From a virus: a DNA stretch of 22,611 nt. Location of the stretch: positions 1-22,611 of the IMG/VR virus record IMGVR_UViG_3300032342_000073; one strand, 5' to 3'. The position numbers and the translations under genes are program-made. The notes beneath the pieces are model-generated. The model saw only the letters and a program-made list of their open reading frames with translations. It ran no database searches and was not told the DNA's origin. Numbering within the stretch: position 1 is the first letter of the stretch; each line of letters opens with the position of its first letter. Shown piece after piece: positions 1 through 15,199 of the stretch.

Positions 1-3000
1 GCTGAGTTCGTCCTGCGTCATCACGTCGACGGCGGCGTGGTAGACGTCGCGGTCCCGGTGTCCGAGTACGTCGACGATCACCTGGGCACGGGCCTCGAAC
101 TCCTCACGGCCCTTCCGCGTCGTGGTGTCGGCGTCTCTGTCCCATTCCTTGACGTGCGCCAGAAGGTCGTGCAGGGCGTCGTTGGTGGCTGGGGTGTGGA
201 CGAGGGTATCCAGGCGCCAGCCAAGTTCAGCCTCCAGCGAGGCGAGGTCGTCCTGCTGGAACTTGGTCAGCGGGGCGTCTTTGGCCTCTTCCTCGAGCTT
301 GGCGATGGCGTCTTCGACGTTCGCCAGGCTCATCTCGAAGTGCTCGGGGTTCGGGCGGGCGGAGGCCGGCGCGGGGACGTGCTTCTCGGCCGGTGCCTTC
401 TCGGGCTCCGCTTCGAGATGCATCACGCGGGAGACGGGGATCCAATGCGAGAGCTTCTTGTCCGGTTCGATGGCGACCTTGACGTTGGAATTGTCTCCGT
501 CGAATCGCTGAATCTCTCCGAATCCCTCGTCCACGGAGACCCGGTCCCCGACCTTGAACCCGCCGACCTCCGTGACCTCCGTCTTGATGCCCGTGCGCGT
601 GGGGATGATCTTGGCCTTCGTGAAGGTGACGGTCGGTACGGCTTCGGCAACTGCCGTTTTCGTTTCCGCAATTGCGGCTTTCTGCGTGGTTTCCGTGGTA
701 GGCGCCTCCGCCTGCCCCGGCCGCGCGACGCCGGTCACGTTGTAGACGGTGTCCTCGATGCCGGGGCCGGGCTTGTGATACCAGACCTTCGACGGCGGGC
801 TCCACTTCCAGCCCTGCTTCTTCAGGCCGTCGAGGACAACGGGGGCGGGCTTCTTGGCGAAGCGCAGCTCGAGGTTACCGTTCGCCGCTCTGCGACGGAC
901 GCTGGCCTTTGGCCCCTCCTGCCATGAATCGTCTGGAGGGAAGGCGCCGAACGATGTGCCGGTCGCGGTGGGCGCTGTTGGTGCCTGTCGGACCGTGTCG
1001 GTGCCTGTCGGTTCGGTCTGGGCCGACACTGGAGCGGGCGCTGCGGGTTCCTCGGGCATCCCGCCAATCTCGCGCAGGCGGGCCTCGACGGGGGCGAGGT
1101 CGGCGCGGAAGCCTGCCATCTGGTCACGGCGGGCTCGCACCATCGCGCCCTGCTGCGCGTTCGCGGGCTGCTTGGCGACCCACTGTTCGCCGTTGTCGAT
1201 CTCGCGGAGCAGATACATACGGCGAAGCCTGAGTTTGGCCGCTTCGGCGGCAGCGCCCTCTCCTTCCGCCGGCTTCCCCGCCTCGACATGCGCCTGAGTC
1301 GTTACCTCGGCGAGATGGTCGCGGGCCTCTTGGATGGCGTCAGCGCGGGCGGCCGGGGTCTCGTGCTCCGCGTTGATGACGTCCGCGAACTCCTGCCGCG
1401 CCGTCTCGATGCGGGCCGCGCCCTCGGCGGTGGCCTTGCGGGCGCCGACGTTGGGGCCTAGCTCGGCGGGCGCCGCTTCCGCCTTCTCTTCCTTCGGTAT
1501 CAGCCCGGCCTCCTGCATGAGGCGCTTCATCTCGGCCTTGGCCGCGGCCTTCTCGTCCGGTGTGGCGGCCGGCGCTTCGACCGCTGGCGTCGGTTGTCCG
1601 GCGGTGGCTGGAGTGGGTTTCGGCGTCCGCATCGCCGCCTTGACGGACTTCACGAACCTGTTTTCCGCGCTCTCTAGATCGCTTCGCCCTGCCATCTTGA
1701 AGTCGTCCTCAACCGCCTCGCGGAAGCGATCAAGCGCAGACTGAAGCGACTCCGGGGCTTTCCCTTCTCCGACGAGCGTATCTACCGCATCTGCGAGGTC
1801 GCGCACGGTCGGTAGTTGGCCCGTGCCGTCGTACTGCTCCCAGGCGTCGGCTAATGAGGCGATGGGCTGTTCGGCCTTGGCCGCGGCTTCATCTCGGAAC
1901 ATCGCCTCCATGTCACCCGCACCGAACAGGCTGGTCGGTGGTTCAGGTTGTCCGGCGGTGGCGGTCAAACCTTCGGCCGCCGCAGGGACGGGCGGCGGGG
2001 GCGGGACCACTGCTGTCCGAACCTCGGACCTGTCTTGTCCGGTCGGGACAGGGGTTGTCTGAGGTGGTGCCACCACCGCGCCTTGTTCGGCGACAGCGCG
2101 CGCCCGGTCAGCCAGGACCGCCGGCAACGACGCCGCCGGCACCCCACGGTGCCCGAGTTCGGCGATGAGGAGTTGGGCGTCAAGCCCTCCCCGCTTTGCG
2201 GGTTTGATGGCCGCCAGATCGGTAAGGAGGGCATCGGTGCTCGCCGCACGGTAGTCGATCCCCAGGACCTCGCCGGGGGTCTTCGAGGCTTCCGGCGCGA
2301 TCGACACCTCCGCGACGGTGCGCGACTTCGGCCAGCCGCCCAGGTCATGCGATGGAGTTGTCGCCCCGAGTTCCATCTGACGTCCGCCGAAGGACTCCAA
2401 CTGCGAGACCAGCGTGCCGACCCGGGCGACCTCTGCCGCCGAGGCGCCAGCCTCACGCAACCCTTGGTAGACTTTGTTCGCCCCGCCCACCGCGACGAAC
2501 GTGGCCGCGAGGTTCTGCACGAACCGCTTGGTGGCAGGCGAGGCTCCGGCGGCGTCGGCCGCCACGCCAGCGGCGAGAGAGGCCGCGTAGGTGGCCGCCA
2601 GGGCCACGGCCGTCGGCCCGGCGCTCATCAGCATCCCGGCGACGGCGAGAGGCGTGGCGGCCCCGCCAAGGCCCTCCATCGTCTCCGAGAGCGCGTTCAT
2701 CGTCTGCTCGGGATGCGGCGTGGCAACCTGGCCGAGTGGGCCTCCACGCAGGACGAACCCCGATTGCCCGCCTTCGATGACGCCCTTCCCGATCTTCTGG
2801 ACGCCTTCGATGGTCGTGGCGGCGAGACCCGGGGGGCCGGCCGCTTCCTGCATCTCCCCGACGTTGTACGGGTCGGTCGCTACGTCGCGGAGCGTGGCGT
2901 TCGTGCGGGCCACCGCCGAGAGTGGCGCCGGCGTCGGCGCGTGGCTCGGGACCGGCGCGATACGATCGAGCCCCACGAACCGCGGCGGGTTGAACGGCGT

Positions 3001-3573
3001 CGGAGTGCGAGCGGCCAGCGTCGAGAGGGCATCGTGCGCCGGCTTCCAGACGAGGCCCGGGTCCACCGGAGCGGGCGGCACCGCCTCCCCGGGCTGGTAG
3101 ACCTTCACGCTGCCTGGGTCAGTCACGCCTCGGGCGACCATTGGCACAGTCGGGCGCGACCCCTCCGGCGTCGCGGCCAAGTCGGCCGCGGCCTGGGGTT
3201 CCCATCCGACGTCGACGAGGTCTTGGAAGTCGCCCCGTGGCATGTTCGGTACGCGGGCGCCGGTGATGGTGTTGAATCCTCCGGCTATCTCGTTGGGGTG
3301 GCCCGGAAGTTTGAAGTCCGACGGCCAATGCCCGGAGGCATCGGGCCCGGTCACGCCGGCCGCTCGTGCCGCTTCGTAGTTGTAGACCTCGGGCTCGTGG
3401 CTGGCGATCGGAGCCGGAACCTCAGCCATCGTCTCCCGCTGCCGGAGGAATCCCAACGCCGAGGAACGCCAGTCGCCAGGCGTCGGTTCGGGCGTCAACG
3501 ACTCGGCGAGCGGCGATTCGACCTGCAGCCGGCTGTCGAGAAACGAACGAGCGGAGGTGCGCCAGTCGGGCAT
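1..3573 (-). CDS. Very large polyvalent/ejection-type protein, partial (left end cut)
   Basis: An open frame of 1191 codons runs from ATG 3573 to the left edge without a stop, so the C-terminus is missing. The start lies 4 bases after the stop of the upstream gene, with GGGG at a suitable distance. Residues 3-12 and 34-43 repeat the pattern DWR(S/T)SAxxFL. Residues about 81-93 (GHWPSDFKLPGHP) match a motif I associate with internal virion proteins of phages. Residues 306-343 are an Ala/Gly/Leu-rich hydrophobic stretch that could insert in a membrane. Pro-rich linkers and charged helices follow. Residues 898-934 (LELRF..KP...LDGLKKQGWKW....VWYH) resemble a small domain seen in polyvalent proteins and near antirestriction modules. 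Residues 1006-1050 look like an SH3/KOW-type barrel. By position it corresponds to the last ejection protein (gp16 place). Delivery into the host with DNA is inference; the enzymatic role, if any, may lie outside the window. Confidence 0.85.
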   Translation of the reverse strand, partial: MPDWRTSARSFLDSRLQVESPLAESLTPEPTPGDWRSSALGFLRQRETMAEVPAPIASHEPEVYNYEAARAAGVTGPDASGHWPSDFKLPGHPNEIAGGFNTITGARVPNMPRGDFQDLVDVGWEPQAAADLAATPEGSRPTVPMVARGVTDPGSVKVYQPGEAVPPAPVDPGLVWKPAHDALSTLAARTPTPFNPPRFVGLDRIAPVPSHAPTPAPLSAVARTNATLRDVATDPYNVGEMQEAAGPPGLAATTIEGVQKIGKGVIEGGQSGFVLRGGPLGQVATPHPEQTMNALSETMEGLGGAATPLAVAGMLMSAGPTAVALAATYAASLAAGVAADAAGASPATKRFVQNLAATFVAVGGANKVYQGLREAGASAAEVARVGTLVSQLESFGGRQMELGATTPSHDLGGWPKSRTVAEVSIAPEASKTPGEVLGIDYRAASTDALLTDLAAIKPAKRGGLDAQLLIAELGHRGVPAASLPAVLADRARAVAEQGAVVAPPQTTPVPTGQDRSEVRTAVVPPPPPVPAAAEGLTATAGQPEPPTSLFGAGDMEAMFRDEAAAKAEQPIASLADAWEQYDGTGQLPTVRDLADAVDTLVGEGKAPESLQSALDRFREAVEDDFKMAGRSDLESAENRFVKSVKAAMRTPKPTPATAGQPTPAVEAPAATPDEKAAAKAEMKRLMQEAGLIPKEEKAEAAPAELGPNVGARKATAEGAARIETARQEFADVINAEHETPAARADAIQEARDHLAEVTTQAHVEAGKPAEGEGAAAEAAKLRLRRMYLLREIDNGEQWVAKQPANAQQGAMVRARRDQMAGFRADLAPVEARLREIGGMPEEPAAPAPVSAQTEPTGTDTVRQAPTAPTATGTSFGAFPPDDSWQEGPKASVRRRAANGNLELRFAKKPAPVVLDGLKKQGWKWSPPSKVWYHKPGPGIEDTVYNVTGVARPGQAEAPTTETTQKAAIAETKTAVAEAVPTVTFTKAKIIPTRTGIKTEVTEVGGFKVGDRVSVDEGFGEIQRFDGDNSNVKVAIEPDKKLSHWIPVSRVMHLEAEPEKAPAEKHVPAPASARPNPEHFEMSLANVEDAIAKLEEEAKDAPLTKFQQDDLASLEAELGWRLDTLVHTPATNDALHDLLAHVKEWDRDADTTTRKGREEFEARAQVIVDVLGHRDRDVYHAAVDVMTQDELS
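1592..1962. repeat. Pair of identical 17-bp direct repeats inside the large protein gene
   Basis: The plus-strand word ggttgtccggcggtggc occurs at 1592-1608 and again at 1946-1962. On the coding strand both copies are read in the same frame and encode ATAGQP, each within a Pro/Ala-rich linker. The repeats probably arose by duplication within the low-complexity linker and have no visible regulatory role. The feature span covers both copies and the unique sequence between them. Confidence 0.6.
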
Positions 3574-3577
3574 CCGT

Positions 3578-5038
3578 TTACCCCGCGAGCAGTCGACGGA
3601 GTTCGGCGAGACGCTGCGCGTAGAGGGGCGACTTGACCTGTCCCTGGCGCTCGAGGCCCTGAATCTCGGCCATCAACGCCTCGACACGCGCCTGCAGCGC
3701 CGCGTCGTTGGTCGGCCCGACCGCGGGCCCCGGCGGCACCGCTGGTGTCGGGGCGACGGCCGGCGGCGGCACACTGGCCGGAGCGGTCACGGGTCCATGT
3801 GAGGCGACGGCTGGCGGGAGCGCCACCGCCGCGGGCTTCGTCAACGCCGACAGGGGCGGGGCCAGGCCAGAGTTGACGGGCGCCTTGAGTTCCATCGTGC
3901 CCGGCAACCGCTTGCCCGAGAGCGGATCGTATCCAGGCGACGCCTGCGGCCAGTAGACGTCGATGGCCTTTTGCAGTTCGAGCCCACTCATGTTGGGATG
4001 GTCCCGTTGCAGGTCCGGCGTTGCTCGCGCCAACTCCGCCTCGGCCTGGTCGCGGCTGTAGCCGCGGTTCCGCATGTCGGTCAGGTAGCGGTCGACACCG
4101 ACGGGGAACTTCGGGTTGTCCTTGAACGGGGTCCCGGCTCCCGCGGCGTCCGGCTTGCGCTGCGCGGCGCTATAGGCCGAGATTAGCGCGGCACTATCCT
4201 TCACGGTTTTTGGTTCGCCGTGTTCCTGCTCCCACCCGTGGTAGAACACCGCGAACTCTGACGTCGGGGCCTTCGCCTCATCAAGGACCTTCAAGGCTGC
4301 CGCCCTCTCCTGCTCCGTCTGCGGGCCGAACGTCGGCGTGAACGTCGGCATGAGCGACTTGCCGCCGACCATCTCGGCCAGTCGTGTACTCGCGGCGATC
4401 CGTTGATCCAAGTCGGCCTGATCCGTGACGGGGGTGGCCCACACCTGAGCACCAGCCTTCAAGGCATACGGGAGGGATTTGAGTGCATCGAGCGCCCGAG
4501 CCTGGGCCTTGTCCTTCTCCTCCTGCCGGTCCTTCAGATACTTGCTGGTCATCTCCGGGTCGACGGCCATCCCCTGACTCCGCACTTCCTCGGGGTTGTC
4601 CTCACCGTACACACCGATCAACGCACCCACCTGTTGCTTGTTGGACTGGTTGATCTGGTCCTGGCCCATCTTGGCGTAGGCGGCCGATTCCTTTTCAAAG
4701 CCCGCGTCCGCAAACACCTTGGCTCGCGCCATCAGCGGCAGACCGGCTGTGGTCTTCGTCAAGACATCGACCCGCGCCGCGTCGTTTTCCTCGCGGGTCA
4801 AACGGACGGTCTGCGCCTCACGCAGCTTGCGTTCCGGCTCGCCAGCCTGGTACTTGACAAGATCGGACATCGTGCGCCCGGTCGTGTCGATGAGGTTGCC
4901 CCACAGGTACGCGTTCGCGGCGCCCTGCTGGTTGGCCGCGTTCGCGGCGATGGCACCGCGAGACCGGATGAGGTCCGACATCCTCGCTGCAGAGGCGTCA
5001 TTGCGATACGCCGGCCGAACATAGGGAATTGAGGCCAT
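3578..5038 (-). CDS. Putative internal virion / DNA-ejection protein (486 aa)
   Basis: The gene starts at ATG 5038 in a TAATG overlap with the preceding stop, so it is translationally coupled to its neighbour. Residues 1-330 are mainly helical and charged, rich in Ala, Gln and Asp, without a signal peptide. Residues about 385-445 form a long Pro/Ala/Val linker, and the last 40 residues form a helical pair with regular Leu (LQARVEALMAEIQGLE, then LAELRRLLAG) that may be a coiled-coil oligomerisation element. No enzyme motif was recognised. Its place directly before the very large last protein and after the tail-neck genes matches the ejection-protein block of P22-like phages (gp7, gp20, gp16). 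I infer that it is packaged in the head and expelled at infection. The family is not identified, so the role rests on position and composition. Confidence 0.8.
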   Translation of the reverse strand: MASIPYVRPAYRNDASAARMSDLIRSRGAIAANAANQQGAANAYLWGNLIDTTGRTMSDLVKYQAGEPERKLREAQTVRLTREENDAARVDVLTKTTAGLPLMARAKVFADAGFEKESAAYAKMGQDQINQSNKQQVGALIGVYGEDNPEEVRSQGMAVDPEMTSKYLKDRQEEKDKAQARALDALKSLPYALKAGAQVWATPVTDQADLDQRIAASTRLAEMVGGKSLMPTFTPTFGPQTEQERAAALKVLDEAKAPTSEFAVFYHGWEQEHGEPKTVKDSAALISAYSAAQRKPDAAGAGTPFKDNPKFPVGVDRYLTDMRNRGYSRDQAEAELARATPDLQRDHPNMSGLELQKAIDVYWPQASPGYDPLSGKRLPGTMELKAPVNSGLAPPLSALTKPAAVALPPAVASHGPVTAPASVPPPAVAPTPAVPPGPAVGPTNDAALQARVEALMAEIQGLERQGQVKSPLYAQRLAELRRLLAG

Positions 5039-6144
5039 TAGGTTGATGCTCCTAGTTCTGCCATCCAGCGGCGGCGTTCCTCGGCCATAACCTCACGCTT
5101 CCAGGCGTCGCTTTCTGCCGCCACCGCCTTGCGATAGACGTCATCGGTGCTATACACCGTTTTCCGGAAGTCGTCATCGGCCATGAACACCATCCGTCGA
5201 TACGTGTCATCGCGGTTGTAGAGCTCCTTTTGCCAGTCCCGATCGAAGGTGAGCTCTGCGGCACGCTGGTCGTTCGCGGTCTTGGTCTGCCAGCCCAGGA
5301 GACTCGGCGAGTACTCGGCCTCTGACCCGGCGAAGGCGCGGTCCCACGCGGAGCGGCCCTCCCCCGCGTTGCGGTCCCACGCGGCGCCCTTCCGGGACTC
5401 AGCGGCTGCGTACTCCTTGGCCGCCATGTCCTGCCCGTAGGCGACGAGGTCCTTGAGCGTGCCTCCCGTTCTGAGGACCCCTTTAGCCGCAGCCGCGCCT
5501 TCGAGGGCTTTCTTGCCCTCGCCGAATCGGAAGGCGTAGCTCGGGTCGCTGGAGAGTTCGTCCGCCGTGAGCGTCCCGTAGGGTGTTGCCGGGGTATAGG
5601 TCGGTGCGGTGTAGGCCGGTGGCGCCACAGCAACCGGGGCCGCGAACATGGACGACGTCGATGGCGCGAGCGACTCGGGAAGCACCACCGGCGCCTCGGC
5701 TCCAGCCGTGGCCGGTGTCGTGACGGACGCCGGCGTGCTCGCAACGGGCGAGGTCCAGGCGGGTGCGGCCGGCTGTGCCACGGGTGGAGGAACGGAGACC
5801 GGCGCGGGCGTGGTCGCTAACGTGGGCGTCGACGGCGAGGTCGGAACTCCCGTGGGTAGCGTTTGGTCGGGGCCGATGTCGTTCGGATCCCAGTACAGTT
5901 GGCCGTCACCGCCCACCTTCCACCGGCCCGGCTGCCCGGACACGTTGATCTGACGTGGGGAGGGGGCCGGCGACGGCGCGGGCACGGGGGCCGGTCCTGG
6001 CGCGGGCGTCGGCGCCGGCGCGGGAATAGGATCGGGGACGGGCCCTGGTGCGGCCGACGCACCGCTAAAGGCTTCGCCAAACTCGTCTTCCGTGAGGGGT
6101 CGCCCGAGCGCGTTGCTGAGGTCGTCGTAGGGATAGGCTTGCAT
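5038..6144 (-). CDS. Putative ejection/internal virion protein with hendecad repeats (368 aa)
   Basis: ATG 6144 follows a GAGG about nine bases upstream and 5 bases after the previous stop. Residues 33-63 are an almost pure Pro/Ala tract, and residues 100-190 are Pro/Thr/Ala-rich and probably disordered. Residues 200-246 (DPSYAFRFGEGKKALE, then KGVLRTGGTLKDLVAYGQD) match a domain I have seen repeatedly in podovirus virion proteins, although I know no established function for it. Residues 245-360 are helical and highly charged with an aromatic residue every 11 positions: Y245, W256, W267, Y278, F300, then W304, Y315, F326, Y337, W348. Such hendecads favour long straight helical bundles. The neighbours and composition suggest an ejected protein forming part of a conduit, but that is inference. 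Confidence 0.82.
   Translation of the reverse strand: MQAYPYDDLSNALGRPLTEDEFGEAFSGASAAPGPVPDPIPAPAPTPAPGPAPVPAPSPAPSPRQINVSGQPGRWKVGGDGQLYWDPNDIGPDQTLPTGVPTSPSTPTLATTPAPVSVPPPVAQPAAPAWTSPVASTPASVTTPATAGAEAPVVLPESLAPSTSSMFAAPVAVAPPAYTAPTYTPATPYGTLTADELSSDPSYAFRFGEGKKALEGAAAAKGVLRTGGTLKDLVAYGQDMAAKEYAAAESRKGAAWDRNAGEGRSAWDRAFAGSEAEYSPSLLGWQTKTANDQRAAELTFDRDWQKELYNRDDTYRRMVFMADDDFRKTVYSTDDVYRKAVAAESDAWKREVMAEERRRWMAELGAST
5065..5235 (-). repeat. Five tandem 33-bp (11-codon) repeat units
   Basis: The 3' end of the 368-residue gene is built from degenerate 33-bp units. The encoded units are LYNRDDTYRRM, VFMADDDFRKT, VYSTDDVYRKA, VAAESDAWKRE and VMAEERRRWMA. Three of them share a GATGAC core at the DNA level followed by an aromatic codon and two basic codons. 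This is a tandem internal duplication that has diverged while keeping its period. Confidence 0.7.
5956..6048 (-). repeat. Low-complexity Pro/Ala codon tract
   Basis: Residues 33-63 of the 368-residue protein are built from alternating Pro and Ala with a few Gly, Val and Ser. The DNA is a run of related GCG/CCG/GCC triplets. Tracts of this kind act as stiff extended linkers and change length easily by slippage. No other function is visible. Confidence 0.6.
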
Positions 6145-6149
6145 CGTGA

Positions 6150-7034
6150 CTACCTCTTCATCGCCGGCAGGGCCAGCGTGCTCAACGACGTGGGCGTCGG
6201 ACTCTGCACGAGGAGACGATAGGCGTCTTCCGACATCCCTTGGTACGGATTCGTCGACGCGAATTGTGGCGCGGAGCCGTAGTCCCGTGGCGTGTAGGCC
6301 AGACCCGGGACGCTCACGGCGCTCGGAAGGGCCGTGGTGGAATCCGTCGCGGTCGTCTCAGGAACGTAACCAGGCCCCCCGGCTGGCTGCCAGGTCGGCG
6401 ACCACAGTCCCGCGCCGGACCCGCCGAAGACATCGAAGGTGCTGATCCCCTCAAATGCCGGATCCAAGGTGCCGCCGATGACGAGCTTGTCGCCACTCAA
6501 CGTGGCGTTCTTGAAGTAGCCGCTCGGATCGGCGCGCAACATCGCCAGCATCTGTTCGCGCTGCGACGGGTCGGTCGTATCGAAGTTCGACGCGATCCTG
6601 GCGAAGTTGTACTTGGGCGTGCGGTGTGTGAGGTCCGCGAGCTTCCCCGCGTCCCACGACGTTGACTTCCCCGCGTACTTGCCGACCGGGACGTCTCCAG
6701 TCGCCATCCCCGATGACCCGGCCGCAGACTGGGAGGTTACGAGACCGGCCCACGTCGAATCGTCGACGGTTTTCACGACGCCGCCGTGCGCTTTGACGTA
6801 GGTAGTGGCGGACGCGACCTCACCCGGCTGAAGCCACCGATAGTTGCCGTGCTCGAAGAGCATGGCCCCGCCCGCGGCGTTCGTGTAGAGGGTCGGCACC
6901 GCCGGTTTCGCGGCCTGCGTCCGTGCTTGCTCGGCCCCCAGGTCGTAGCCATAACCGGCCGTCGGGTCGTCGGGGGTGGTGGACGCGCCAACCTGATTCC
7001 AGAACGTCGGCACCGCCGTATCGGCTTGGATCAT
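6150..7034 (-). CDS. Virion-associated protein of unknown function (294 aa)
   Basis: The start codon overlaps the previous stop as ATGA at 7031-7034, indicating coupled translation with the 256-residue protein. The protein is rich in Gly, Ala, Thr and Ser, has no signal peptide or membrane segment and no motif that I recognise. Residues about 60-75 (HGNYRWLQPGEV) and 140-180 (RIASNFDTTDPSQREQMLAML) are the best-ordered stretches. The C-terminal third is Pro/Ser/Thr-rich, ending in a helix-like segment. It lies in the middle of the ejection-type block and is probably a virion component. A tail-tip or plug role would also fit the position. Function is not assignable from sequence. Confidence 0.8.
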   Translation of the reverse strand: MIQADTAVPTFWNQVGASTTPDDPTAGYGYDLGAEQARTQAAKPAVPTLYTNAAGGAMLFEHGNYRWLQPGEVASATTYVKAHGGVVKTVDDSTWAGLVTSQSAAGSSGMATGDVPVGKYAGKSTSWDAGKLADLTHRTPKYNFARIASNFDTTDPSQREQMLAMLRADPSGYFKNATLSGDKLVIGGTLDPAFEGISTFDVFGGSGAGLWSPTWQPAGGPGYVPETTATDSTTALPSAVSVPGLAYTPRDYGSAPQFASTNPYQGMSEDAYRLLVQSPTPTSLSTLALPAMKR

Positions 7035-7801
7035 GACTGGTACACCTGCGCCCTTCTCGACCGCGCCAACGCACTCAGGGAGGCCCCGCCTCTGCCCGCC
7101 CGCACCAGGGCCGCGACCTGTCCAGGGGTCAACGCGCCCATCACGGCCGGGCGTGGTGCCGCGAGACCCTGGTACGCGGCCGACGCCATACTTGGCGCCG
7201 TCGCGGCCGTGGCGGCCGGCGCGTCAATGACGGTCGGCTCTGGCGCCGAGGTCGGCGGAAGAAGCTGCGGGTTATCAAGAAATGAACGGTCCGTGGTGTC
7301 GGTGGTTTCCGCCGTGGTCGTGGCTTTGGACGTGCCCGCGGTCACGGGGTCTCCCGCTTTCCAGTCTTTCGGCATCGTGTCGAGGAGTGGCGCGGGCGAC
7401 GCCGCCTGAGCTGGTGGTCCGGCCACACCGGACAGCGTGGCGAGTTGCGCGAGAGCGCCGACGCCGGCCGCTCGGTACGGGGCCATCTGTGACTGGCGGT
7501 CGGTGTACTTCTGCTTGGCCAGCGCGAACTCCGCCTGACGGATGGCGAGCGTATCGCCGTACTGCGTCTCTTCTTTGGCCTGCTCGGCGTCCCATTGGGC
7601 TTTGGCTTCGGTCTGTTCCCGTTCCCATTCGGCCCTGGCCTCGGCGGCCTGTTCTTTCTCGAAGGCCAATTGGTCGGCATTCGCGGACAGTTGCACGTCG
7701 GCCGCTCGCTTAGAGGACCCGGACTCCGACCTCGCAGCCACCACACTCGCCGTGGTTTTAGCCGCCGCGGTTATTATTGCGGCGACAACGATTGCTGGCA
7801 T
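7031..7801 (-). CDS. Putative ejection/internal virion protein, coiled-coil (256 aa)
   Basis: The frame is open upstream of 7801, but ATG 7801 has a strong AGGAGG a few bases upstream and gives the compact start MPAIVVAA; it overlaps the end of the acetyltransferase gene by 28 bases. Residues 1-22 are hydrophobic and Ala-rich, either an amphipathic helix or a membrane-seeking segment. Residues 36-108 are a charged helix with aromatic residues at F47, W59, W70, Y81 and F92, mostly 11 apart. PYRAAGVGALAQL (108-120) resembles a motif common after such helices in phage virion proteins. The remainder is Pro/Ala/Thr-rich with a basic C-terminal helix. By position and composition it would be the first ejection protein of the block (gp7/gp20 place). 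The assignment is inference. Confidence 0.82.
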   Translation of the reverse strand: MPAIVVAAIITAAAKTTASVVAARSESGSSKRAADVQLSANADQLAFEKEQAAEARAEWEREQTEAKAQWDAEQAKEETQYGDTLAIRQAEFALAKQKYTDRQSQMAPYRAAGVGALAQLATLSGVAGPPAQAASPAPLLDTMPKDWKAGDPVTAGTSKATTTAETTDTTDRSFLDNPQLLPPTSAPEPTVIDAPAATAATAPSMASAAYQGLAAPRPAVMGALTPGQVAALVRAGRGGASLSALARSRRAQVYQS

Positions 7802-8187
7802 GATGCCTCCTCTTGGTCGAACGCCATCGGCAGGGCAAAGGCTGTTCCTGGCACCTCGACACCCCCGAACTTCTGACTCAGCGCCCGGACGTGGTCGGTC
7901 GTCGCATTCGTCAATACCGCCCGCACGTGCCAGTCCTTCGCAATACGCTGCATCCCACGAATCAACCGATAGCCGATGCCTGGCGAGTGGCGTCGGTCGG
8001 GCGCGATCCAGAGACACTCTGCATGCACAACACGGAGGGCCATCCACACCCCGACAATCTGCCCTTCCTGTTCCACCACAAGCACGCGCGTGTTGACCGG
8101 GTCCAGGTTCTGCCACACCTCCGCCGCCTCGGTGCCGGCAAGTCTCGGCCATTCGTCCGGCGGTAAGAGGTGTGCAAAATAGCTCAT
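7774..8187 (-). CDS. GNAT-like N-acetyltransferase (137 aa)
   Basis: The fold is suggested by the ordered elements RVLVVEQEGQIVGVW (34-48), then a beta strand HAECLWIAP (55-63), the acetyl-CoA loop region RRHSPGIGYRLIRGM (65-79), and a second strand and helix RAVLTNATTDHVRALSQKFGG (89-109). The usual Q/RxxGxG/A loop is seen as HxxGxG (H67, G70, G72), so the first position is atypical. The ATG overlaps the previous stop as ATGA at 8184-8187 with GGAG seven bases upstream. GNAT enzymes move an acetyl group from acetyl-CoA to an amine. The substrate here cannot be read from sequence; a virion protein or a host protein are both possible. Similar proteins occur in the tail regions of other phages, as I recall. 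Confidence 0.8.
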   Translation of the reverse strand: MSYFAHLLPPDEWPRLAGTEAAEVWQNLDPVNTRVLVVEQEGQIVGVWMALRVVHAECLWIAPDRRHSPGIGYRLIRGMQRIAKDWHVRAVLTNATTDHVRALSQKFGGVEVPGTAFALPMAFDQEEASCQQSLSPQ

Positions 8188-8672
8188 GTGGCGACTCCGG
8201 GTATTGCTTCAACAACCAGATCGAGCGCGTACTGCATCGTTGTCCCGCCCGCGCTGGCGTAGACCACACCGTACGTGAGCGGACCATCCTGATCACATCG
8301 CACGAGCACAGACCCGCTCTGCACGCTGGCGGTCGTGTTCCCGGTGAGGGCCGCGAACGCCTGGCTGCAGGCCACTCCACCATCCGTCCACCCAAGCGTG
8401 ACGGTCGCCGATGAACTCGACGACGCGGCGCGCGTGACACGCAGGCTGACACTGACCCGGTACAGACCCGTGGTGAGCGAGGCGATCGGGACAGACGTGG
8501 TCACGATCGTCGCGCCTTGCGCGGTAAGGCTCACGGTCTGCAGCCGAAACGACGCCGCATCGACTTGCTGGGCGAGGGCCTGGAGCCAGGAGGCCCACAC
8601 CCGCGGAATCACGCCGGTGCCTTTCTCCGCAATCGGGTCACGCGGCAGGCCGGGCAGACGGAGGCGCAGCAT
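8184..8672 (-). CDS. Beta-sandwich virion protein after gp10-like gene (162 aa)
   Basis: ATG 8672 overlaps the previous stop in TGATG. Residues 1-45 include a basic, Pro-rich start and one helix (VWASWLQALAQQV). Residues 48-158 are alternating beta strands rich in Ser, Thr, Val and Ala, with GLYRVSVSLRVTRAA and LTYGVVYASAGGTTMQYALDLVVE as clear strands. I recognise this beta-sandwich type from phage virion proteins, but I know of no defined function for it. Two cysteines (in GVACSQ and LVRCDQ) could pair. In P22 the tail needle gp26 follows gp10, so this protein occupies the needle position, yet it lacks the long trimeric coiled coil expected of a needle. A small fibre, decoration or plug protein is more likely. 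Confidence 0.82.
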   Translation of the reverse strand: MLRLRLPGLPRDPIAEKGTGVIPRVWASWLQALAQQVDAASFRLQTVSLTAQGATIVTTSVPIASLTTGLYRVSVSLRVTRAASSSSSATVTLGWTDGGVACSQAFAALTGNTTASVQSGSVLVRCDQDGPLTYGVVYASAGGTTMQYALDLVVEAIPGVAT

Positions 8673-10132
8673 CAGGCGCCTCCATGATCGCGCACGGTGA
8701 TAGTGGCGCCCATAATGCGAAACGGCACCGGGTCCGTCACGACAAACTCACCGACAAGGTCCTCCCCGGACCCACACCGCCACCAGCGCACGCGCTTCGA
8801 GTAGTCCCATATCTGCCCGATGCTCCTGGTCCGTTCGGAACCCCAGGTCTTCCCGCCATCCTTCGAGAGTCGCATCGACATCACCGAATCGGCGCCTCGG
8901 CCGGCGTAGGTGCTCACGCCAGACTCGAGGAGGACCTCCACGCAATCGAGCCCGATCGGCTCGCGGTCGTTGAACACGCTCGGCGTCCGGCGCACACGCC
9001 GAATCGGCAGCCCGTCAACGTCGTAGCCGTAGGTTTCGGAGACCTCGTAGATCGTGCCCGTCGTGCTATCGAGCGCCAAGTGCCGGCCGAAGGCGTGGAC
9101 GTGATAACGCGGGCGCCAGGCGACGTAGGCATTGGACCCACTCACCCATGTCCCTCGACGCGCCCACATTTGCGTGGTGAGGTCGAGCGCCCACGTCACA
9201 TCCTGCGTCGGGAAGGTCAGCAGATAGAACGTATGGCCCGCGGCCGAATAGCTCGACCCGATAGCATCGTCGATCGTGGCGTAGTTGTGGATGGCCCACG
9301 CGACCGCGTTGGTGCTGGCCGGTTGTGGCGCCCCGCCGTTGACGAGGACGACTTCACCGTGGCCGTCCGCGGTCTGAGAGACCCAGAGAATCCCTCCGAG
9401 GATTTCCTTGGCCGAGAAGGGGGCCGCACAGCCGTGGGCCAGCAGCGCGCCAGGAATCGGCACAAACGGGAAGGGATACGTCCCGGCGTTGTTCCACACC
9501 TCCGAGGTTTCCTCGCCGAGGAGCCAGATTTCGCGGGCACTCTTCGGCACGATGAGGGCCACCCAGCGGTCAGGTGCGGTGGACCGTTGAGCAAACTGTG
9601 TGGGATCCCATGTCGTGCAATCGAGCAAGTCCGACACGAAGAAGGTCGAGGTCGACGAATCCAGCACGAGGAAGTAGCCGTCAATCCACGCGCACATCGT
9701 ATTGCCGCTGGCGCGCTCGACGGTCAGGGTGTTCGTGTCGAGATCTAAGCTGTACCCCACGTCCCCGGAGGTGATGAAGAGTTGCCCCGACCCATCATCG
9801 CCACCACAGATCGTGGCGGGGTTGGCATCGACCGCCACCGCGCCACGATTCACCAAGGACAGCGTGCCATCTCCGGCTTCGAGGAGTTCGTACACGACGC
9901 CCCCGATCACCGCAAAGGCACGGCCGCTCTTATGAAAGAACCCTCGTCCTGGTGTTTCGACGGGTGTCAGCCGGGCTTCCACGCCCGGTGTCGGGTAGAG
10001 GTTGATCGGGGTCTTCCCGCCGACCACCTGGCGAGGTTCCGGGTAGTAGTTGACGGTATCCTGGCCGTCCGCAATCGACGATTGCGAGATGTTCGATCCG
10101 CCGCAGAACATCGGCCAGGGTATCCGGCTCAT
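8672..10132 (-). CDS. P22 gp10-like packaged-DNA stabilisation / tail hub protein (486 aa)
   Basis: The protein matches the P22 gp10 family (phage stabilisation protein) in length (P22 gp10 is 472 residues) and style. It starts MSRIPWPMFCGGSNISQSS, followed by NYYPEPR and repeated beta-rich segments of propeller type with ordered signatures such as TSTFFVSDLLDCTTWDP and GREIWLLG-like strands with EVWNNAG. Gp10 closes the neck below gp4, keeps packaged DNA in the head and gives an attachment point for the tail needle. The start follows the gp4-like stop by two bases with GGGAG upstream. The gene order gp4-gp10 supports the assignment. No truncation is visible. Confidence 0.9.
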   Translation of the reverse strand: MSRIPWPMFCGGSNISQSSIADGQDTVNYYPEPRQVVGGKTPINLYPTPGVEARLTPVETPGRGFFHKSGRAFAVIGGVVYELLEAGDGTLSLVNRGAVAVDANPATICGGDDGSGQLFITSGDVGYSLDLDTNTLTVERASGNTMCAWIDGYFLVLDSSTSTFFVSDLLDCTTWDPTQFAQRSTAPDRWVALIVPKSAREIWLLGEETSEVWNNAGTYPFPFVPIPGALLAHGCAAPFSAKEILGGILWVSQTADGHGEVVLVNGGAPQPASTNAVAWAIHNYATIDDAIGSSYSAAGHTFYLLTFPTQDVTWALDLTTQMWARRGTWVSGSNAYVAWRPRYHVHAFGRHLALDSTTGTIYEVSETYGYDVDGLPIRRVRRTPSVFNDREPIGLDCVEVLLESGVSTYAGRGADSVMSMRLSKDGGKTWGSERTRSIGQIWDYSKRVRWWRCGSGEDLVGEFVVTDPVPFRIMGATITVRDHGGA

Positions 10133-10134
10133 GC

Positions 10135-10866
10135 CTAACTCCCGGTGTACAGGTCGTACCGACCGCTCCCACGCAGACCCGGCGTGCCCGGGTCGAGTGA
10201 GGCGTCAGTCGGGCGCAGGTTGGCCCGCTTGATGGCGGCAAGCGCCTCAATCGCGACGCGTTCCACCCGCGGGCTCGGGGTCTTGCCAAAGTCCTCGGCC
10301 AACTCCAACGCGAGGTTGTACCGATACATCCGGCTCCACCCGGGCGGCATCGCGTAGACCGTCGTGAGATCGGCAAACGTGGAGGCGGCGGCTGGCGTGT
10401 AGAGCACGAGGTCACACAGGCCCGTGTTCGGCACCGGGTAGACCCTGATGGTGCCCAAGCCCGCAGCCCACGCGAAATCGTAGTAGCAGGCGGTCGGCCA
10501 CGGACCCGTGGCACTCTTGTCGGTGAGTCCTTGCCACTCGGCGATGTTGATCGGGCGCCCGATCGGCACTTCGATCGACGGACTCGCTGTGCGATCGGGG
10601 ATGACACTCGCGTTGTCGATCCAGACCGGGCGGGCCTGGTTGAATGTGCCGCCGGTGCCAATCGTGTAAGCCGCCACTCCACTTGAGAGCGGGTAGACGT
10701 TCCGGCTCACCGTGAAGATGCTCGCCCGTTCGAGGCCCAGACTGTCGACGAAGTCGTCCAGCGCGATCTTGCCGACCGCGAGTTCTTCGGCCTCGGGCGT
10801 ATCGGTGGCCCCGACGACGCCCAAAAGACGGAGCGACCGCGTGATGATGTCGGTGGCGCTCGGCAT
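10135..10866 (-). CDS. P22 gp4-like tail accessory / head completion protein (243 aa)
   Basis: The N-terminal helical part (DIITRSLRLLGVVGATDTPEAEEL) and the later pattern RPVWIDNASV, RPINIAEWQGLTDK, PTACYYDF, IRVYPVPN, LVLYTPAA and the helical C-terminal region (MYRYNLALELAEDFGK) match the gp4 family of head-to-tail connectors. P22 gp4 binds the portal as a dodecamer and seals the packaged head. The family also includes a cell-wall hydrolase role in P22, but I see no convincing catalytic motif here. It is longer than P22 gp4 (166 residues) with an added C-terminal extension. The start ATG 10866 has GGGAG eight bases upstream, after the 63-residue protein. The gp10-like gene follows directly. 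Confidence 0.87.
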   Translation of the reverse strand: MPSATDIITRSLRLLGVVGATDTPEAEELAVGKIALDDFVDSLGLERASIFTVSRNVYPLSSGVAAYTIGTGGTFNQARPVWIDNASVIPDRTASPSIEVPIGRPINIAEWQGLTDKSATGPWPTACYYDFAWAAGLGTIRVYPVPNTGLCDLVLYTPAAASTFADLTTVYAMPPGWSRMYRYNLALELAEDFGKTPSPRVERVAIEALAAIKRANLRPTDASLDPGTPGLRGSGRYDLYTGS

Positions 10867-10884: not shown

Positions 10885-11076
10885 CTACGTCGAGCCGTGT
10901 TTCTTCGACGCCTTCGTCGGTGTGGCCGGCACGTCAGCCTCTGGTTCCACCGGCACACGCACGGGAGACAGGGAATCGGACCATCCTGGCCCGAGTTCAG
11001 CCTCTTCGGCCTCCGACTGGACGAGTCGCTTGCCTGCCGTTGGGTGATACCGCCAACCGGGAAACTTGATGACCAT
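10885..11076 (-). CDS. Small conserved-type phage protein with W/H/P motif (63 aa)
   Basis: The frame is open upstream, but ATG 11076 is preceded by GAGG five bases away and gives a compact protein MVIKFPGWRYHPTAGK. The motif FPGWRYHP followed by EEAELGPGWSDSL (about residues 22-34) recurs, as I recall, in small proteins next to phage head genes; no function is established. The C-terminal half is Pro/Val/Ala-rich and ends in a basic KASKKH tail. It sits between the exported-type proteins and gp4, so a minor head or connector part is possible. Confidence 0.75.
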   Translation of the reverse strand: MVIKFPGWRYHPTAGKRLVQSEAEEAELGPGWSDSLSPVRVPVEPEADVPATPTKASKKHGST

Positions 11077-11096: not shown

Positions 11097-11708
11097 CTAC
11101 GGGAGCACTTCGGTAATCAGATAGAACGTGACCGACCCCGCGTTGAGGTTGGTCGCGGCGCCGCTGCCCAGGTTGCCGGTCCCGCTCGTGAGGCGCATCG
11201 TAACAATCGTGCCGGCCCACGACAGGAGGCCACCCTGAATCGCCGCGGCGCGGGTCAGTCCGGTGCCGAGCTCGGTGTCCGCGTCGCCAAAGAGGGCGGT
11301 TGCCGCATCGACATCGAAGCTCGCCAAGACGTCACTCCCTCCCGCGGACGTGCCCACGGTCGCTGAGAGCGTGCCGTTTGTGCAGACAGACGCGCAGACG
11401 AACGTAGCGGTGACGTCCGCATAGACGCCGATCAGACGTGTCTTCGCCGGCAAGGTCGCAATCGTCCAGTCGGCGTTGACGGCCGCCGCGATGAACTGCG
11501 CGTACGTGACCGTGGCCTTGTAGACCACGCGCCGAACGGACCCGGCGTCATTGACCGTGACGCCCGTTCCGCTCCCCGGCGCGATACGGGCAACCGCGAC
11601 CGAGACATTGGCGGGACGAATCTCGGCCTGGTCACGGCCAAGGACGTCCGAGAACGAGTACGCGATGAACACCAACGAGAGACACGCCGCGACAATGGCG
11701 CGGATCAC
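11097..11708 (-). CDS. Membrane-anchored or exported virion-type beta protein (203 aa)
   Basis: GTG 11708 is chosen because GGAG lies six bases upstream and the codon overlaps the previous stop as GTGA (11705-11708); a GTG at 11723 would add five residues. Residues 1-20 (MIRAIVAACLSLVFIAYSFS) are one Arg followed by an uninterrupted hydrophobic run, a signal peptide or membrane anchor. The rest is beta-rich: VVYKATVTYAQFIAAAV, then the stretch TIATLPAKTRLIGVYADVTATF, a CASVC pair and LSATVGTSAGG. I have seen this LPA..LIGV..DVTATF type in phage virion proteins without leaders. It is the last of three consecutive genes with leaders. The function is unknown; surface or periplasmic location is predicted only by the leader. 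Confidence 0.83.
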   Translation of the reverse strand: MIRAIVAACLSLVFIAYSFSDVLGRDQAEIRPANVSVAVARIAPGSGTGVTVNDAGSVRRVVYKATVTYAQFIAAAVNADWTIATLPAKTRLIGVYADVTATFVCASVCTNGTLSATVGTSAGGSDVLASFDVDAATALFGDADTELGTGLTRAAAIQGGLLSWAGTIVTMRLTSGTGNLGSGAATNLNAGSVTFYLITEVLP

Positions 11709-12043
11709 TGTCGACTCCAGCACCAGACGTTGAGCAGACCGCTCGTGGCCCCGGTGCGAATGAACGTGATGCGCTGCAAGTCCTCTCCCCGATCCACGGT
11801 CAGCACGTCGCCGACCTCGAGGAGCGTGCCGACGCTGGCGGTCGGGGCCACGTCAATCCGCCATCGGACCTGCGCGGTCTCCAGCCTGAACCCGCAGCCG
11901 GCCATGCCCGCTCGAATGGCGGCCGTCACGCCAATGGCTGTATTGGCGACCGTAATCTGTTCGAAGGTCGTCGCCCGCTGGCTCTGTGCGGGTGCCCCCA
12001 CGAGGAGGGCCAGCGCGAGGGTCAGAAGCAAGACTCGTCGCAT
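11705..12043 (-). CDS. Exported-type small virion-like protein (112 aa)
   Basis: ATG 12043 has AAGGAG seven bases upstream, overlapping the stop of the previous gene. Residues 1-20 (MRRVLLLTLALALLVGAPAQ) form a textbook Sec leader: RR, a Leu/Ala core and AxA-type cleavage near residue 19. The mature domain is a short beta sandwich: TFEQITVANTAIGVTAA, RLETAQVRWRIDVAPTASVG, LLEVGDVLTV and RITFIRTGATSGLLNVWCW. The pattern ETA.(I/V)RW..D..PTA..G.LL..GD is one I associate with small phage head proteins that normally have no leader. The mature part has exactly two cysteines (in MAGCGF and NVWCW). It is tightly coupled to the next gene by GTGA. Confidence 0.85.
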   Translation of the reverse strand: MRRVLLLTLALALLVGAPAQSQRATTFEQITVANTAIGVTAAIRAGMAGCGFRLETAQVRWRIDVAPTASVGTLLEVGDVLTVDRGEDLQRITFIRTGATSGLLNVWCWSRQ

Positions 12044-12053
12044 GGGTCTCTCC

Positions 12054-13190
12054 TTAGCGGGTGATTTCCCACCAATTGATGCGGATATTCGCGTCGATCG
12101 TGCCGCCCGCCTGGAGGTAGGTGATAAACGGGTCCATGCCGATGTCCGCGGTTTTGGCGGTGCCGCTATTGGTCATCGTGATCGGCGTGCCATTCAGGAA
12201 CGCCGTGGGCACGCGCGCCGCGCTGATACACGATTTCAGGGTGTAGGTGCCGGCGTTCGCCGCGTTGACGCCGCTATCGTCACTGAGGGTCCCGCCTCCG
12301 GCGACTTCCCCGAGCGAGAACACCGACCCGTCGACGTTATTGATGCCCACAACGGACCAGTCCGCATACCCGGTGTAGACGTTGCCGGCCTGGAATGCCT
12401 CATGTTTGCGCCAACCAATGAGCATCTGGTCGGTGCCGGCAATCAGCGCGATGGTGAAGTTGACCGTGAAGCAGCCCCCGTTGACGCCCGTGGTAATCCA
12501 CGAGGTTGCGTCCGTCACGATGCCGTCTCCGAGGTAGATTTCGACGCCCTCGTTGTCGGTCGTGTTGTCGGCCGATATGTCGAGCTTATTCGCCGCCACA
12601 ATCCACGACGAGGCCGACTTGACAAGCTCTTCCCGATAGGTGATCAGCCCGGATGGGCTGCCCCAGACATAGTTGGTGCCGGTGGCCGCGATCGTCTTCG
12701 CACCGGCCGCGGTCGTCGCCAGCACCAAGAGGGGCCGGGTGAAGTCTTCGCGGGCGTAGGTCGTCCACATATTCGTGGAGGCGCCCAACGCCGCACCGGG
12801 AATCGTCTCGGCCGGACCGCCCTTGATCGCAACGGTGGCGAACCCGCTCGTATAGGCCGTCATCTTGGCCCGAATCTGGCTAAAGCCCGGATTCGAGACC
12901 ACGAAGAGGTCGTTGGCCGTCGTCGTCGAGGCCAGGCCGTAGGTGGACTGGCGTATCACCGGGATGGCCGTCCACGTCCCCGCAATAGACGCCTCGAAGG
13001 TGATGGTCCCCGACCATGTGCCACTGACCTGAATGGTGACGCTCTTGTCGGCGCCCGTCGTGGCAGTGACCACAGCATCGGCAATCCCAAGGGTGCCCTG
13101 CGTGACCGGCTGCGCGAAGGCGGAGACGGCGGAGAGCATGGCGATGAGGAGCGCCGCCACGCTGACTCTGAGTAGTGAAGTTCGTCGCAT
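12054..13190 (-). CDS. Exported-type virion-like protein with jelly-roll C-terminus (378 aa)
   Basis: ATG 13190 is favoured over the upstream GTG 13199 because AGGAG lies eight bases before it. Residues 1-27 are a clear Sec leader (MRRTSLLRVSVAALLIAMLS, then AVSAFA before Q). The next 95 residues are a beta-sandwich domain (VTIQVSGTWSGTITFEASI, FSQIRAKMTAYTSGFATVAI) of a type common in phage virion proteins. The C-terminal region of about 230 residues, from WTTYAREDF to INWWEITR, is rich in strands and resembles lectin-like or jelly-roll folds, which suggests surface or carbohydrate binding, although no binding residues can be named. Two cysteines are present in the mature protein. The gene follows a strong hairpin. 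Confidence 0.85.
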   Translation of the reverse strand: MRRTSLLRVSVAALLIAMLSAVSAFAQPVTQGTLGIADAVVTATTGADKSVTIQVSGTWSGTITFEASIAGTWTAIPVIRQSTYGLASTTTANDLFVVSNPGFSQIRAKMTAYTSGFATVAIKGGPAETIPGAALGASTNMWTTYAREDFTRPLLVLATTAAGAKTIAATGTNYVWGSPSGLITYREELVKSASSWIVAANKLDISADNTTDNEGVEIYLGDGIVTDATSWITTGVNGGCFTVNFTIALIAGTDQMLIGWRKHEAFQAGNVYTGYADWSVVGINNVDGSVFSLGEVAGGGTLSDDSGVNAANAGTYTLKSCISAARVPTAFLNGTPITMTNSGTAKTADIGMDPFITYLQAGGTIDANIRINWWEITR

Positions 13191-13221: not shown

Positions 13222-13252
13222 CTGGCCGCCCACGTCGGGTGTGGGCGGCCAG
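13222..13252 (-). promoter_or_regulatory. Perfect 12-bp hairpin between two virion genes
   Basis: On the coding strand CTGGCCGCCCAC is followed by a 7-base loop and its exact complement. The stem is 12 bp with only two A-T or T-A pairs near the ends. It lies in the 81-base gap between the stop at 13272 and the next start at 13190. There is no T-run after it, so it is not a standard intrinsic terminator; a partial terminator, processing stop or mRNA-protecting structure are the alternatives. Confidence 0.6.
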
Positions 13253-13271: not shown

Positions 13272-13868
13272 TTACGTGATCGTCCAGTTGTTGTTCGCCA
13301 GCACGAGCCACTTGCCCTTGGCCGCGACCAGGGAGAGGCAGGCGCCGATGTAGGCCGCCGACGTGTTGGTCGTGTGGAGACCAGTCGTGCCGTCGTGGCA
13401 CGAGACGGTGGTGATGACGTGCGCGGCATCGGTGAGGGTCAGGAAGCGGGCCACGAGCCCGTCCTGTCCAAACCCCGGATCGGCAAACGTGGTGCTCGCC
13501 AGGGCCGCCGCTTTCGTCAAGTGGTAGTCGGTGTCGCGGGTGGGGGCAGGAACAACGCCGTTCTGCCCGACGGTGATAACGTCCCGCTTGGATGGCGGTG
13601 GCACGTCCTGTTTCGCCCCGAGGCTGGCGAAGTCGGAATCCAGGCCGAACGTGACCTGCGCGAGCACGTCATGGGCCTGGGCCGTTCCGCCGCGGTCGCC
13701 GCGCGATCGGACGGTGATGAAGTTCGCCACGGGGATTGCCACGATCCGCATGAACTCGCCGGCAATCTGCATGATGCCGCCCACCGTCGCTCCGGTGGAC
13801 GCGGTCACGTTGAAGGTGAGCGAGTTTGCGGTGGCCGCGGCGGCCAGTGTGGTTCTCGTGATAGCCAT
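13272..13868 (-). CDS. Virion structural protein, possible head decoration (198 aa)
   Basis: ATG 13868 has AGGAG eight bases upstream. Residues 1-80 follow the pattern TLAAAATANSLTFNVTASTG, GGIMQIAGEFMRIVAI, FITVRSRGDRGGTAQAHDV, the beta domain with a GT..AHxx element often seen in proteins near the coat gene of phages. Residues 140-198 are a second beta-rich part ending GKWLVLANNNWTIT. There is no leader or membrane segment. Lying directly after the coat gene and flanked by hairpins that could modulate its expression, it is a good candidate for an abundant head-decoration or fibre-base protein. Neither role is proven by sequence. Confidence 0.82.
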   Translation of the reverse strand: MAITRTTLAAAATANSLTFNVTASTGATVGGIMQIAGEFMRIVAIPVANFITVRSRGDRGGTAQAHDVLAQVTFGLDSDFASLGAKQDVPPPSKRDVITVGQNGVVPAPTRDTDYHLTKAAALASTTFADPGFGQDGLVARFLTLTDAAHVITTVSCHDGTTGLHTTNTSAAYIGACLSLVAAKGKWLVLANNNWTIT

Positions 13869-13948: not shown

Positions 13949-15199
13949 TTACGAGCAGACGCGAGCGCCCAGGTCTGGGCGCACAGCGGACCAGCCGTAC
14001 ATGAGGTCCACCCGCGCGGGCGACTGGTCGGTCATGATCGAGTAGTCCTTGAGGAACCGCACGGCGATCCCCAGGGCCTTGTTGCTGATGCGCTCCGCCA
14101 CCCAGAGCCCCCCGGGCTTTTCGAGGTCGGCGAACACGAGCGCGTAGGCGCCAGGCAGATAGACGAGGGCCTGGGGCGAGGACACGCTCGCATACGTCGA
14201 GGCGTGACCGAAGATGGTCACGGCCGCGCTGTCGGCCGGTGAGGTGGTGCAGGTCTGGAGGGCACCAGACGTGACGATGGCCGGCGAGATCGGGACCGTG
14301 GCCGCGCCACCAGACGTGCCATACACGTCCGCCAGGACGACGAAGTCCTTGAGCTGGCCCGTGCTCTGGTAGTTCAGGGGGTTGATGTCGTAGACCGCGT
14401 CAAACTGGATCACGTCGCCCTCGCGCAGTCGGAGCGCGGCGGCCGACGTAAAGCCCTTCAACAGAATCGAGGCCCCCGTCTGCACGCCATCCACCTGTGG
14501 CGTGCCACCCAACGGGCCGACCACATGGGTGGCCACGTTCTGCGACATGAACCACTCGCTGATGCCGAGGGCTTCGTTCCCGAACTGACCCGTGCGGAAC
14601 GCCTTGGAGATGGCGGCGGCCGGGTTGAACAGGGCGAAGTTCGCCGACGAGAGGTAGGCGTGCATGTTCGGATCGAGGATGGCGATACGCCCGTCAGACG
14701 GGACCCCACCCTTCGACAGCTTCACGCCTGCCGCCAAGTACGGCATATTGGCCGCGCCCGGCAGCGTGCCCGTCGAACCCGGGACGACGCCAGGCGTGCC
14801 GGACGTCATGTACGTCTTCTTGTACATGCGGCTCAGGCCGTCGAAGTCGACCGCATTGATCAGGGAATCGACCGCCGGCTCGATGTACCGCTCCCGATAG
14901 TTGTCCACTTCCATCGTGAGGGACGCCATCGAGAACTCCAGACCGATGTTGGCCTGGTCGGTCAGCGTGATGGGGACGATCTGGTCCTGCACCGGCTGAG
15001 GGTTGAGGGCCTGGCCCTTGTTGACCTGATACCGCTGCGGCAGACGGGCGTTGACCGTGTAGCCGACCTTCGCGCCGCTCTGCTTGAACTCATCGCTGTA
15101 GCTGCGATCCACGTTGTTGGCGAACCGCATGTTGTTGACGAGACGGAGTCCGATCTGTTTCATCACCCACGTCGGGGTGACAAGGGTATTGGCTGCCAT
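13949..15199 (-). CDS. Major coat protein, P22 gp5-like (416 aa)
   Basis: The protein matches the P22 coat family in length (P22 gp5 is 430 residues) and in ordered segments. It starts MAANTLVTPTWVMKQIGLRL, followed by NNMRFANNVDRSYSDEF, VNARLPQRY, the region LTDQANIGLEFSMASLTMEVD and RYIEPAVDSLINAVD. The C-terminal part contains LRLREGDVIQFDAVYDINPL and ALGIAVRFLKDYSIMTDQSPARVDLMYGW, which is typical for this family. It forms the HK97-fold T=7-type shell with scaffold assistance. No leader is present. The start ATG 15199 follows a G-rich ribosome site (see hairpin at 15206-15221). Two Cys occur, one next to the C-terminus (VCS). Confidence 0.95.
   Translation of the reverse strand: MAANTLVTPTWVMKQIGLRLVNNMRFANNVDRSYSDEFKQSGAKVGYTVNARLPQRYQVNKGQALNPQPVQDQIVPITLTDQANIGLEFSMASLTMEVDNYRERYIEPAVDSLINAVDFDGLSRMYKKTYMTSGTPGVVPGSTGTLPGAANMPYLAAGVKLSKGGVPSDGRIAILDPNMHAYLSSANFALFNPAAAISKAFRTGQFGNEALGISEWFMSQNVATHVVGPLGGTPQVDGVQTGASILLKGFTSAAALRLREGDVIQFDAVYDINPLNYQSTGQLKDFVVLADVYGTSGGAATVPISPAIVTSGALQTCTTSPADSAAVTIFGHASTYASVSSPQALVYLPGAYALVFADLEKPGGLWVAERISNKALGIAVRFLKDYSIMTDQSPARVDLMYGWSAVRPDLGARVCS

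Follow-up and report, generated by a model that had tools for sequence, protein, structure and literature searches.

Genes and leaders between coat and gp4

The present analysis concerns a window of 22,611 b, which is the whole of IMG/VR record IMGVR_UViG_3300032342_000073 and represents a fragment of a P22-type podovirus. Its minus strand carries, in order, the genes for TerL, portal (Pfam P22_portal, 5e-114), scaffold and coat (P22_CoatProtein, 1e-25), then g198, g378, g112 and g203, and after these a 63-aa protein, a gp4-like protein, a gp10-like head-closure protein and ejection-type proteins. The interval from coat to gp4, which contains g378, g112 and g203, has the following features.

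13949..15199, minus strand: P22-type coat protein, the upstream neighbour, without leader
13272..13868, minus strand: g198, without leader in the window phage and its close relatives
13222..13252, minus strand: perfect hairpin of 12 bp with a 7-nt loop and no T-run, between g198 and g378
12054..13190, minus strand: g378, leader, N-terminal beta module and C-terminal module of predicted ConA-like lectin fold
11705..12043, minus strand: g112, leader and beta module of ~90 aa with two cysteines
11705..11708, minus strand: GTGA overlap of the g112 stop and g203 start
11097..11708, minus strand: g203, hydrophobic leader and module of predicted Ig-like cement-protein type
10885..11076, minus strand: small acidic protein upstream of gp4, without leader, resembling proteins in PAE2 (L037) and L002
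10135..10866, minus strand: gp4-like tail accessory protein, the downstream border of the cassette, without leader

The earlier note had proposed Sec leaders on g378 and g112 and a hydrophobic run at the start of g203, and these proposals were borne out in coordinates, start codons and sequence. Translation of g378 starts at ATG 13190 (13199 is an in-frame GTG) with a textbook leader of 26 aa, MRRTSLLRVSVAALLIAMLSAVSAFA^QP (13190-13113, site SAFA^QP), and that of g112 at ATG 12043, preceded by AGGAG, with an equally textbook leader of 19 aa, MRRVLLLTLALALLVGAPA^QSQ (12043-11987, site GAPA^QS). The start of g203 is GTG 11708, which overlaps the g112 stop as GTGA; the overlap suggests translational coupling of the two genes and supports the leader-containing start of g203. 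Its leader, MIRAIVAACLSLVFIAYS, extends from 11708 to about 11655 and is the weakest of the three, with a positive N-terminus and a hydrophobic run followed by a poor cleavage site. Judged by Sec/SPase I features (n-region, core and A-X-A-type site), g378 and g112 were complete and g203 was complete with a weak site.

Leaders were called with a home-made rule rather than with SignalP, which looks for a positively charged n-region, a hydrophobic core free of charged residues and a cleavage site for SPase I. In a benchmark of 43 E. coli K-12 genes it called 10 of 12 exported, none of 24 cytosolic and 2 of 6 inner-membrane proteins. Among 17 window proteins tested, exactly three were positive, namely g378, g112 and g203, while composition shuffles of the same proteins reached the rule in 2.3%, 4.8% and 5.7% of cases (product about 6e-5). 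Of the window's own core proteins, TerL, portal, scaffold, coat, gp4 and gp10 all lacked a leader by the rule, in agreement with the earlier observation that the preceding head genes (portal, scaffold and coat) are leaderless.

The hairpin between g198 and g378 may perhaps serve in attenuation or mRNA processing ahead of the exported cassette; a hairpin stands at the equivalent place in L002 (7938-7970), where G-C takes the position of one A-T pair, a compensated change. Elsewhere in the window, a possible GNAT-type acetyltransferase, recognised by eye, lies at 7774-8187 between the gp10-like and ejection-type genes and has a homologue in contig G001.

Conservation of leaders and cysteines

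Homologues were sought with module sequences, and the patterns scanned (YREE/EGVEI, TIATLPAK, SFDLDA and FEQITV) exclude the leader. A leader was nevertheless found in 34 of 45 module-bearing proteins, usually with the cleavage site A^Q, which answers favourably a check suggested earlier, that homologues be examined for retention of the leader. The C-terminal module of g378 (g378C, residues 145-378) occurred with a leader-type N-terminus in 11 of 11 distinct proteins, nine of which pass the cleavage rule; all tabulated g112 proteins other than L082 and all complete g203 proteins other than L063 and L064 carried leaders. Leader identity was 47-54% as compared with 80% for the mature part (window against L002 for g378 and against L013 for g112), and the diverging leaders kept their charge, hydrophobic core and site. 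This pattern, rapid drift with preserved character, is apparently that of real signal peptides. For comparison, only 3 of 102 core proteins of the relatives' loci scored for a leader, and then only at upstream, non-native start codons. In L068 (3100-3420) there is a second g112 copy, its module in a different reading frame from the leader start (MRRLLL..), which points to an assembly error or a decayed leader.

As had been noted earlier, the mature parts of g378, g112 and g203 contain two cysteines each, the third g203 cysteine being located in the leader. The invariant cysteines of g378C are C240 and C321 (C96 and C177 in the module alignment), and the g203 pair C105xxxC109 is invariant in the module alignment. 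This CxxxC motif was absent from both leaderless members and also from leadered L066, L067 and L069, which have other cysteines. At least two mature cysteines were present in 34 of 34 leadered homologues versus 5 of 11 leaderless ones (Fisher 5.7e-5), a comparison among proteins that share ancestry and are not independent. A better test, in our view, comes from another 17 leadered proteins encoded in these cassettes, most of them without relation to the g378, g112 and g203 modules; 16 had an even mature cysteine number (binomial 1.4e-4). Among leaderless core proteins with cysteines, 31 of 76 were even and 45 odd (p=7e-5 against the 16 of 17), with a slight bias possible in that leaders were cut at the site judged natural. 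Even numbers in leadered proteins are predicted by disulfides formed after export, and such parity would not be easily explained by unused leaders. Unlike the exported proteins, the ejection-type proteins g294, g368 and g486b have no cysteines, nor does the 4483-aa ORF of G001 (G001:C1:16366-29817) that corresponds to the minus-strand ORF cut by the left end of the window at 1-3573.

In five larger contigs, for which gene calls are approximate, leader-type proteins are concentrated either between coat and gp10 or in the fibre locus that precedes the lysis genes: two by rule in G001, one (a spike) in G002, four in G009, three plus one hydrophobic in G003, and two plus two leader-like in G008. 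A few lie in other places and resemble lipoprotein or membrane proteins. Four consecutive fibre-locus proteins of G003 have leader-type N-termini ahead of a lysis-type gene, and no leaderless fibre candidate was seen in the 40 kb covered. The closest relative, G001, has leadered proteins together with large leaderless ones of 1374, 669 and 400 aa in this interval, and its candidate adhesins therefore include leaderless proteins as well as exported ones. In cultured relatives the coat-gp4 interval contains short leaderless proteins in PAE2, PBR31, DSL-LC05 and P26218 and larger leaderless ones in EBPR podovirus 1, and such leaders were absent from the interval in cultured phages with related coats (BA3, EBPR podovirus 1, P26218, PAE2 and DSL-LC05). 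No close cultured-phage homologues were found for g112 or g203, and two partial ones were found for the N-terminal module of g378. An origin of the genes as secreted host genes was considered, and g378C was found in 0 of 396 genomes from the phylum of an Acidobacteria-labelled MAG, a weak negative.

Several further loci deserve mention. Manatee Spring phage ctLwi270 (L033) has two leadered proteins near the portal (6338-8878 and 9452-10243), one with Laminin_G_3, a ConA-like domain. In L043 (3431-10464) several leader-type genes follow in a row after coat and a g198-like gene, and the last two products are very rich in cysteine (10 and 23). The coat gene of L013 is broken after residue ~33 by about 0.75 kb (4943-5688) and resumes at ~26, resembling an insertion or intron.

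Modules and predicted folds

Sequence searches of Pfam and PDB with g378, g112 and g203 gave zero matches. The modules recur in varied combinations. Neighbouring genes in L004 and L016 consist of a leader with the g198 module and g378C and then a leader with g112 and g378C, and L013 has leader, g112 and g378C followed by leader and g112. The g198 module, leaderless in the window, carries a leader and cysteine pair in L004, L016, L042, L044 and L046. The g112 module is also N-terminal in fibre-like and lectin-like exported proteins, and g203 is elsewhere the C-terminal module of tailspike- or fibre-like proteins, ending fibre-like proteins in L050, L055, L060, L061, L066 and L067 and a leadered 1018-aa protein of L009 that has PHROG tailspike and Pfam beta-helix matches and lies ahead of lysis genes. 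A single gene in L068 (from a MAG that carries the label Acidobacteria and the isolate name LacPavin) combines leader, g112, fibre and g203 and precedes genes for gp4 and gp10 homologues that share 71 and 74% identity with those of the window. From their sequences, g112 and g203 of the window look like such a fusion taken apart, with each part given its own leader. Relatives such as L009 and L068 thus join a fibre or beta-helix body to a C-terminal module, and the window modules stand alone. The same modules also occur without leaders in structural regions (L032, L063, L064 and L082).

AlphaFold2 applied to L068 (23 sequences) gave confident all-beta regions for g112 and g203 (pLDDT mostly 70-95 in the latter), with the middle unmodelled. 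Foldseek against PDB placed cement proteins at ranks 1-3 (Pam1 7eel, KHP30 7dn2 and KHP40 7dou) and GP4 cement protein 8h89 at rank 7, with E 7e-4 to 0.03, prob 0.99-1.00 and target TM 0.50-0.60, the assignment of these matches to the g203 part resting on alignment length. No PDB chain resembled g203 in sequence at E<=1 (profile A5). The models suggest that the g203 module has the fold of Ig-like trimeric cement proteins, these proteins in Pam1, KHP30, KHP40 and GP4 being trimeric with an Ig-like topology (PMC9698820). The g378 model (pLDDT 63) resembles ConA-like lectin and PL7 folds, matching ERGIC-53, Emp47p, PL7 lyases and other jelly-roll lectin-like domains; this predicted resemblance is at the level of fold and is silent on activity. 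A match of the same model to XepA (6i56) was discarded at TM 0.17. The folding and structure searches advised earlier yielded a cement-protein fold for g203, by way of L068, and a lectin-like fold for g378. The earlier comparison of the mature parts with beta proteins of phage heads holds insofar as they are virion-type, and it was too narrow in naming heads alone, since g203 and g112 belong equally to tail fibres and spikes.

Export and fate of the proteins

Tailed-phage virions are taught as cytoplasmic products, and we know of no tailed phage that draws virion parts from the periplasm. The leaders, their conservation, the cysteines and the virion-type modules together support export of adhesin- or decoration-type proteins well, and Sec export of g378, g112 and g203 is highly probable from their sequences. 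The earlier interpretation is supported in part: export gains from the conserved leaders and even cysteines, the mature parts are virion-type with the head being only part of the picture, and the three fates offered there (coating of the cell surface, a superinfection block and joining of virions at lysis) stand as candidates. Under the explanation we favour, the three proteins would be translated with the late head genes and passed through SecYEG, signal peptidase I would cut the leaders (clearly for g378 and g112, uncertainly for g203), and the conserved cysteine pairs would be oxidised to disulfides in the envelope. The mature parts would then be adhesin or decoration modules, lectin-fold g378, small beta g112 and Ig-like cement-type g203. 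Head and tail core would be assembled in the cytoplasm; these accessory proteins, already folded and oxidised, would stay in the periplasm until lysis and then bind finished particles as decorations or adhesins. We infer export, oxidation and joining alike, and the chain as a whole seems about evenly poised between being right and wrong. Somewhat more tentatively, there may be an environmental group of short-tailed phages with two-compartment virions, in which a cytoplasmic core is joined at lysis by periplasmic, disulfide-bonded fibres or decorations.

Joining at lysis is favoured by the full-length leadered spikes and fibres in the usual locus and by the cement-protein fold of g203, given that decoration proteins can bind finished heads externally. 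Against the favoured explanation, the three proteins showed no recognisable segment for binding capsids or tails, the g203 leader of the window has a poor cleavage site, G001 retains large leaderless proteins, and the cultured phages with related coats lack such leaders in the interval. The strongest rival is that the proteins are exported and never enter virions, acting as adhesins, free or bound to surfaces, that cover the receptor or glycans used by the phage itself and so prevent superinfection as well as the trapping of progeny on debris. This is a distinctly less probable explanation but a serious one. It is favoured by the lectin fold of g378C and by the stand-alone leader-g203 and leader-g112 proteins (window, L010, L059 and L069), which resemble fibre ends without a recognisable virion anchor, and it has a loose parallel in a known exported late-region protein, lambda Lom, encoded between tail-spike and tail-fibre genes (PMC12309495). 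Against it are the cement-like fold of g203, the leaders on full-length tailspikes and fibres encoded where spikes usually are, ahead of the lysis genes, the leaderless occurrence of the same modules in structural regions, and the presence of several distinct leadered proteins in a row, more than one masking protein would need. A Lom-type outer-membrane beta-barrel was rejected, as matches were of beta-sandwich or lectin type only.

It is improbable that the leaders remain uncut as inner-membrane anchors, with the modules tethered in the periplasm to serve in exclusion or in the timing of lysis. The g203 proteins of the window, L004B, L042 and L060 do lack a good AxA site by rule, and a weak PHROG match of g203 (PHROG 20969) is labelled Rz-like spanin, but the site is clear in the majority of homologues (typically A^Q), and the lipobox, coiled coil and C-terminal TM seen in spanins are missing. 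A spanin identity for g203 was rejected on the absence of a lipobox and of a C-terminal TM (C-terminus NAGSVTFYLITEVLP) and on its all-beta model. Least probable by far is that chance hydrophobic N-termini or wrong starts lend leaders to ordinary cytoplasmic virion proteins. Prediction was by rule alone and 2-6% of shuffles are leader-like, but recurrence in many contigs, the RBS and GTGA overlap at leader starts and cysteine parity all argue otherwise, and we regard this explanation as ruled out by the homologues and cysteines.

Among known systems, the Ig-like cement proteins of cyanophage Pam1, H. pylori phages KHP30/KHP40 and Ralstonia phage GP4 share the g203 fold and are encoded near the coat gene, but they are capsid proteins for which no leader is mentioned (PMC9698820), as opposed to the leader and cysteine pair here, and the g203 module, unlike them, also ends fibres and spikes. 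Phage L Dec decorates the surface of P22-type heads as an accessory protein and can bind finished capsids externally, with nanomolar affinity for finished P22 heads in vitro (PMC6449081), but it has an OB-fold and no leader reported. Phage tail fibres and tailspikes (PHROG 2234 and 7458) share beta-helix spike, fibre repeats and C-terminal modules with proteins of L009, L050, L055, L066, L067 and L068, which differ in having an N-terminal Sec leader and even cysteine numbers. Lambda Lom and similar exported morons are signal-peptide proteins encoded among tail genes (PMC12309495), but Lom is an outer-membrane beta-barrel whereas the window proteins have predicted beta-sandwich or lectin modules common to virion proteins. 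Sec-exported and SAR endolysins such as fOg44 Lys44 are late phage proteins exported by Sec before lysis (PMC6116005), and, by contrast, no lytic domain was found in the window proteins. No precedent for Sec leaders on tailed-phage fibre or decoration proteins was found in the open-access literature, where phage signal peptides belonged to endolysins, Lom and the PBR31 esterase and not to virion fibres. Fibres, cement folds and exported phage proteins are known, and their combination is new to us.

If adhesins or decorations are exported and oxidised first, assembly would continue after lysis and production would depend on host Sec and Dsb; if the exported fibres are real, annotation pipelines miss such fibres. 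If the proteins are instead secreted decoys, phages would carry dedicated cassettes of free receptor-binding proteins. A leadered fibre-like protein is open to laboratory test in phiAX1 (L036 9313-10278), an inducible phage of Acetobacter sp. ATCC 21760 that its authors predicted to be incomplete (PMC8566455). The 321-aa fibre-like protein (BCZ75904.1, PhiAX1_440) has a clear Sec leader, MKRLAILAGLCVPALAFA^Q, which would place the mature start at Q19, and four mature cysteines. Its gene adjoins one for a leaderless dextranase-type protein.
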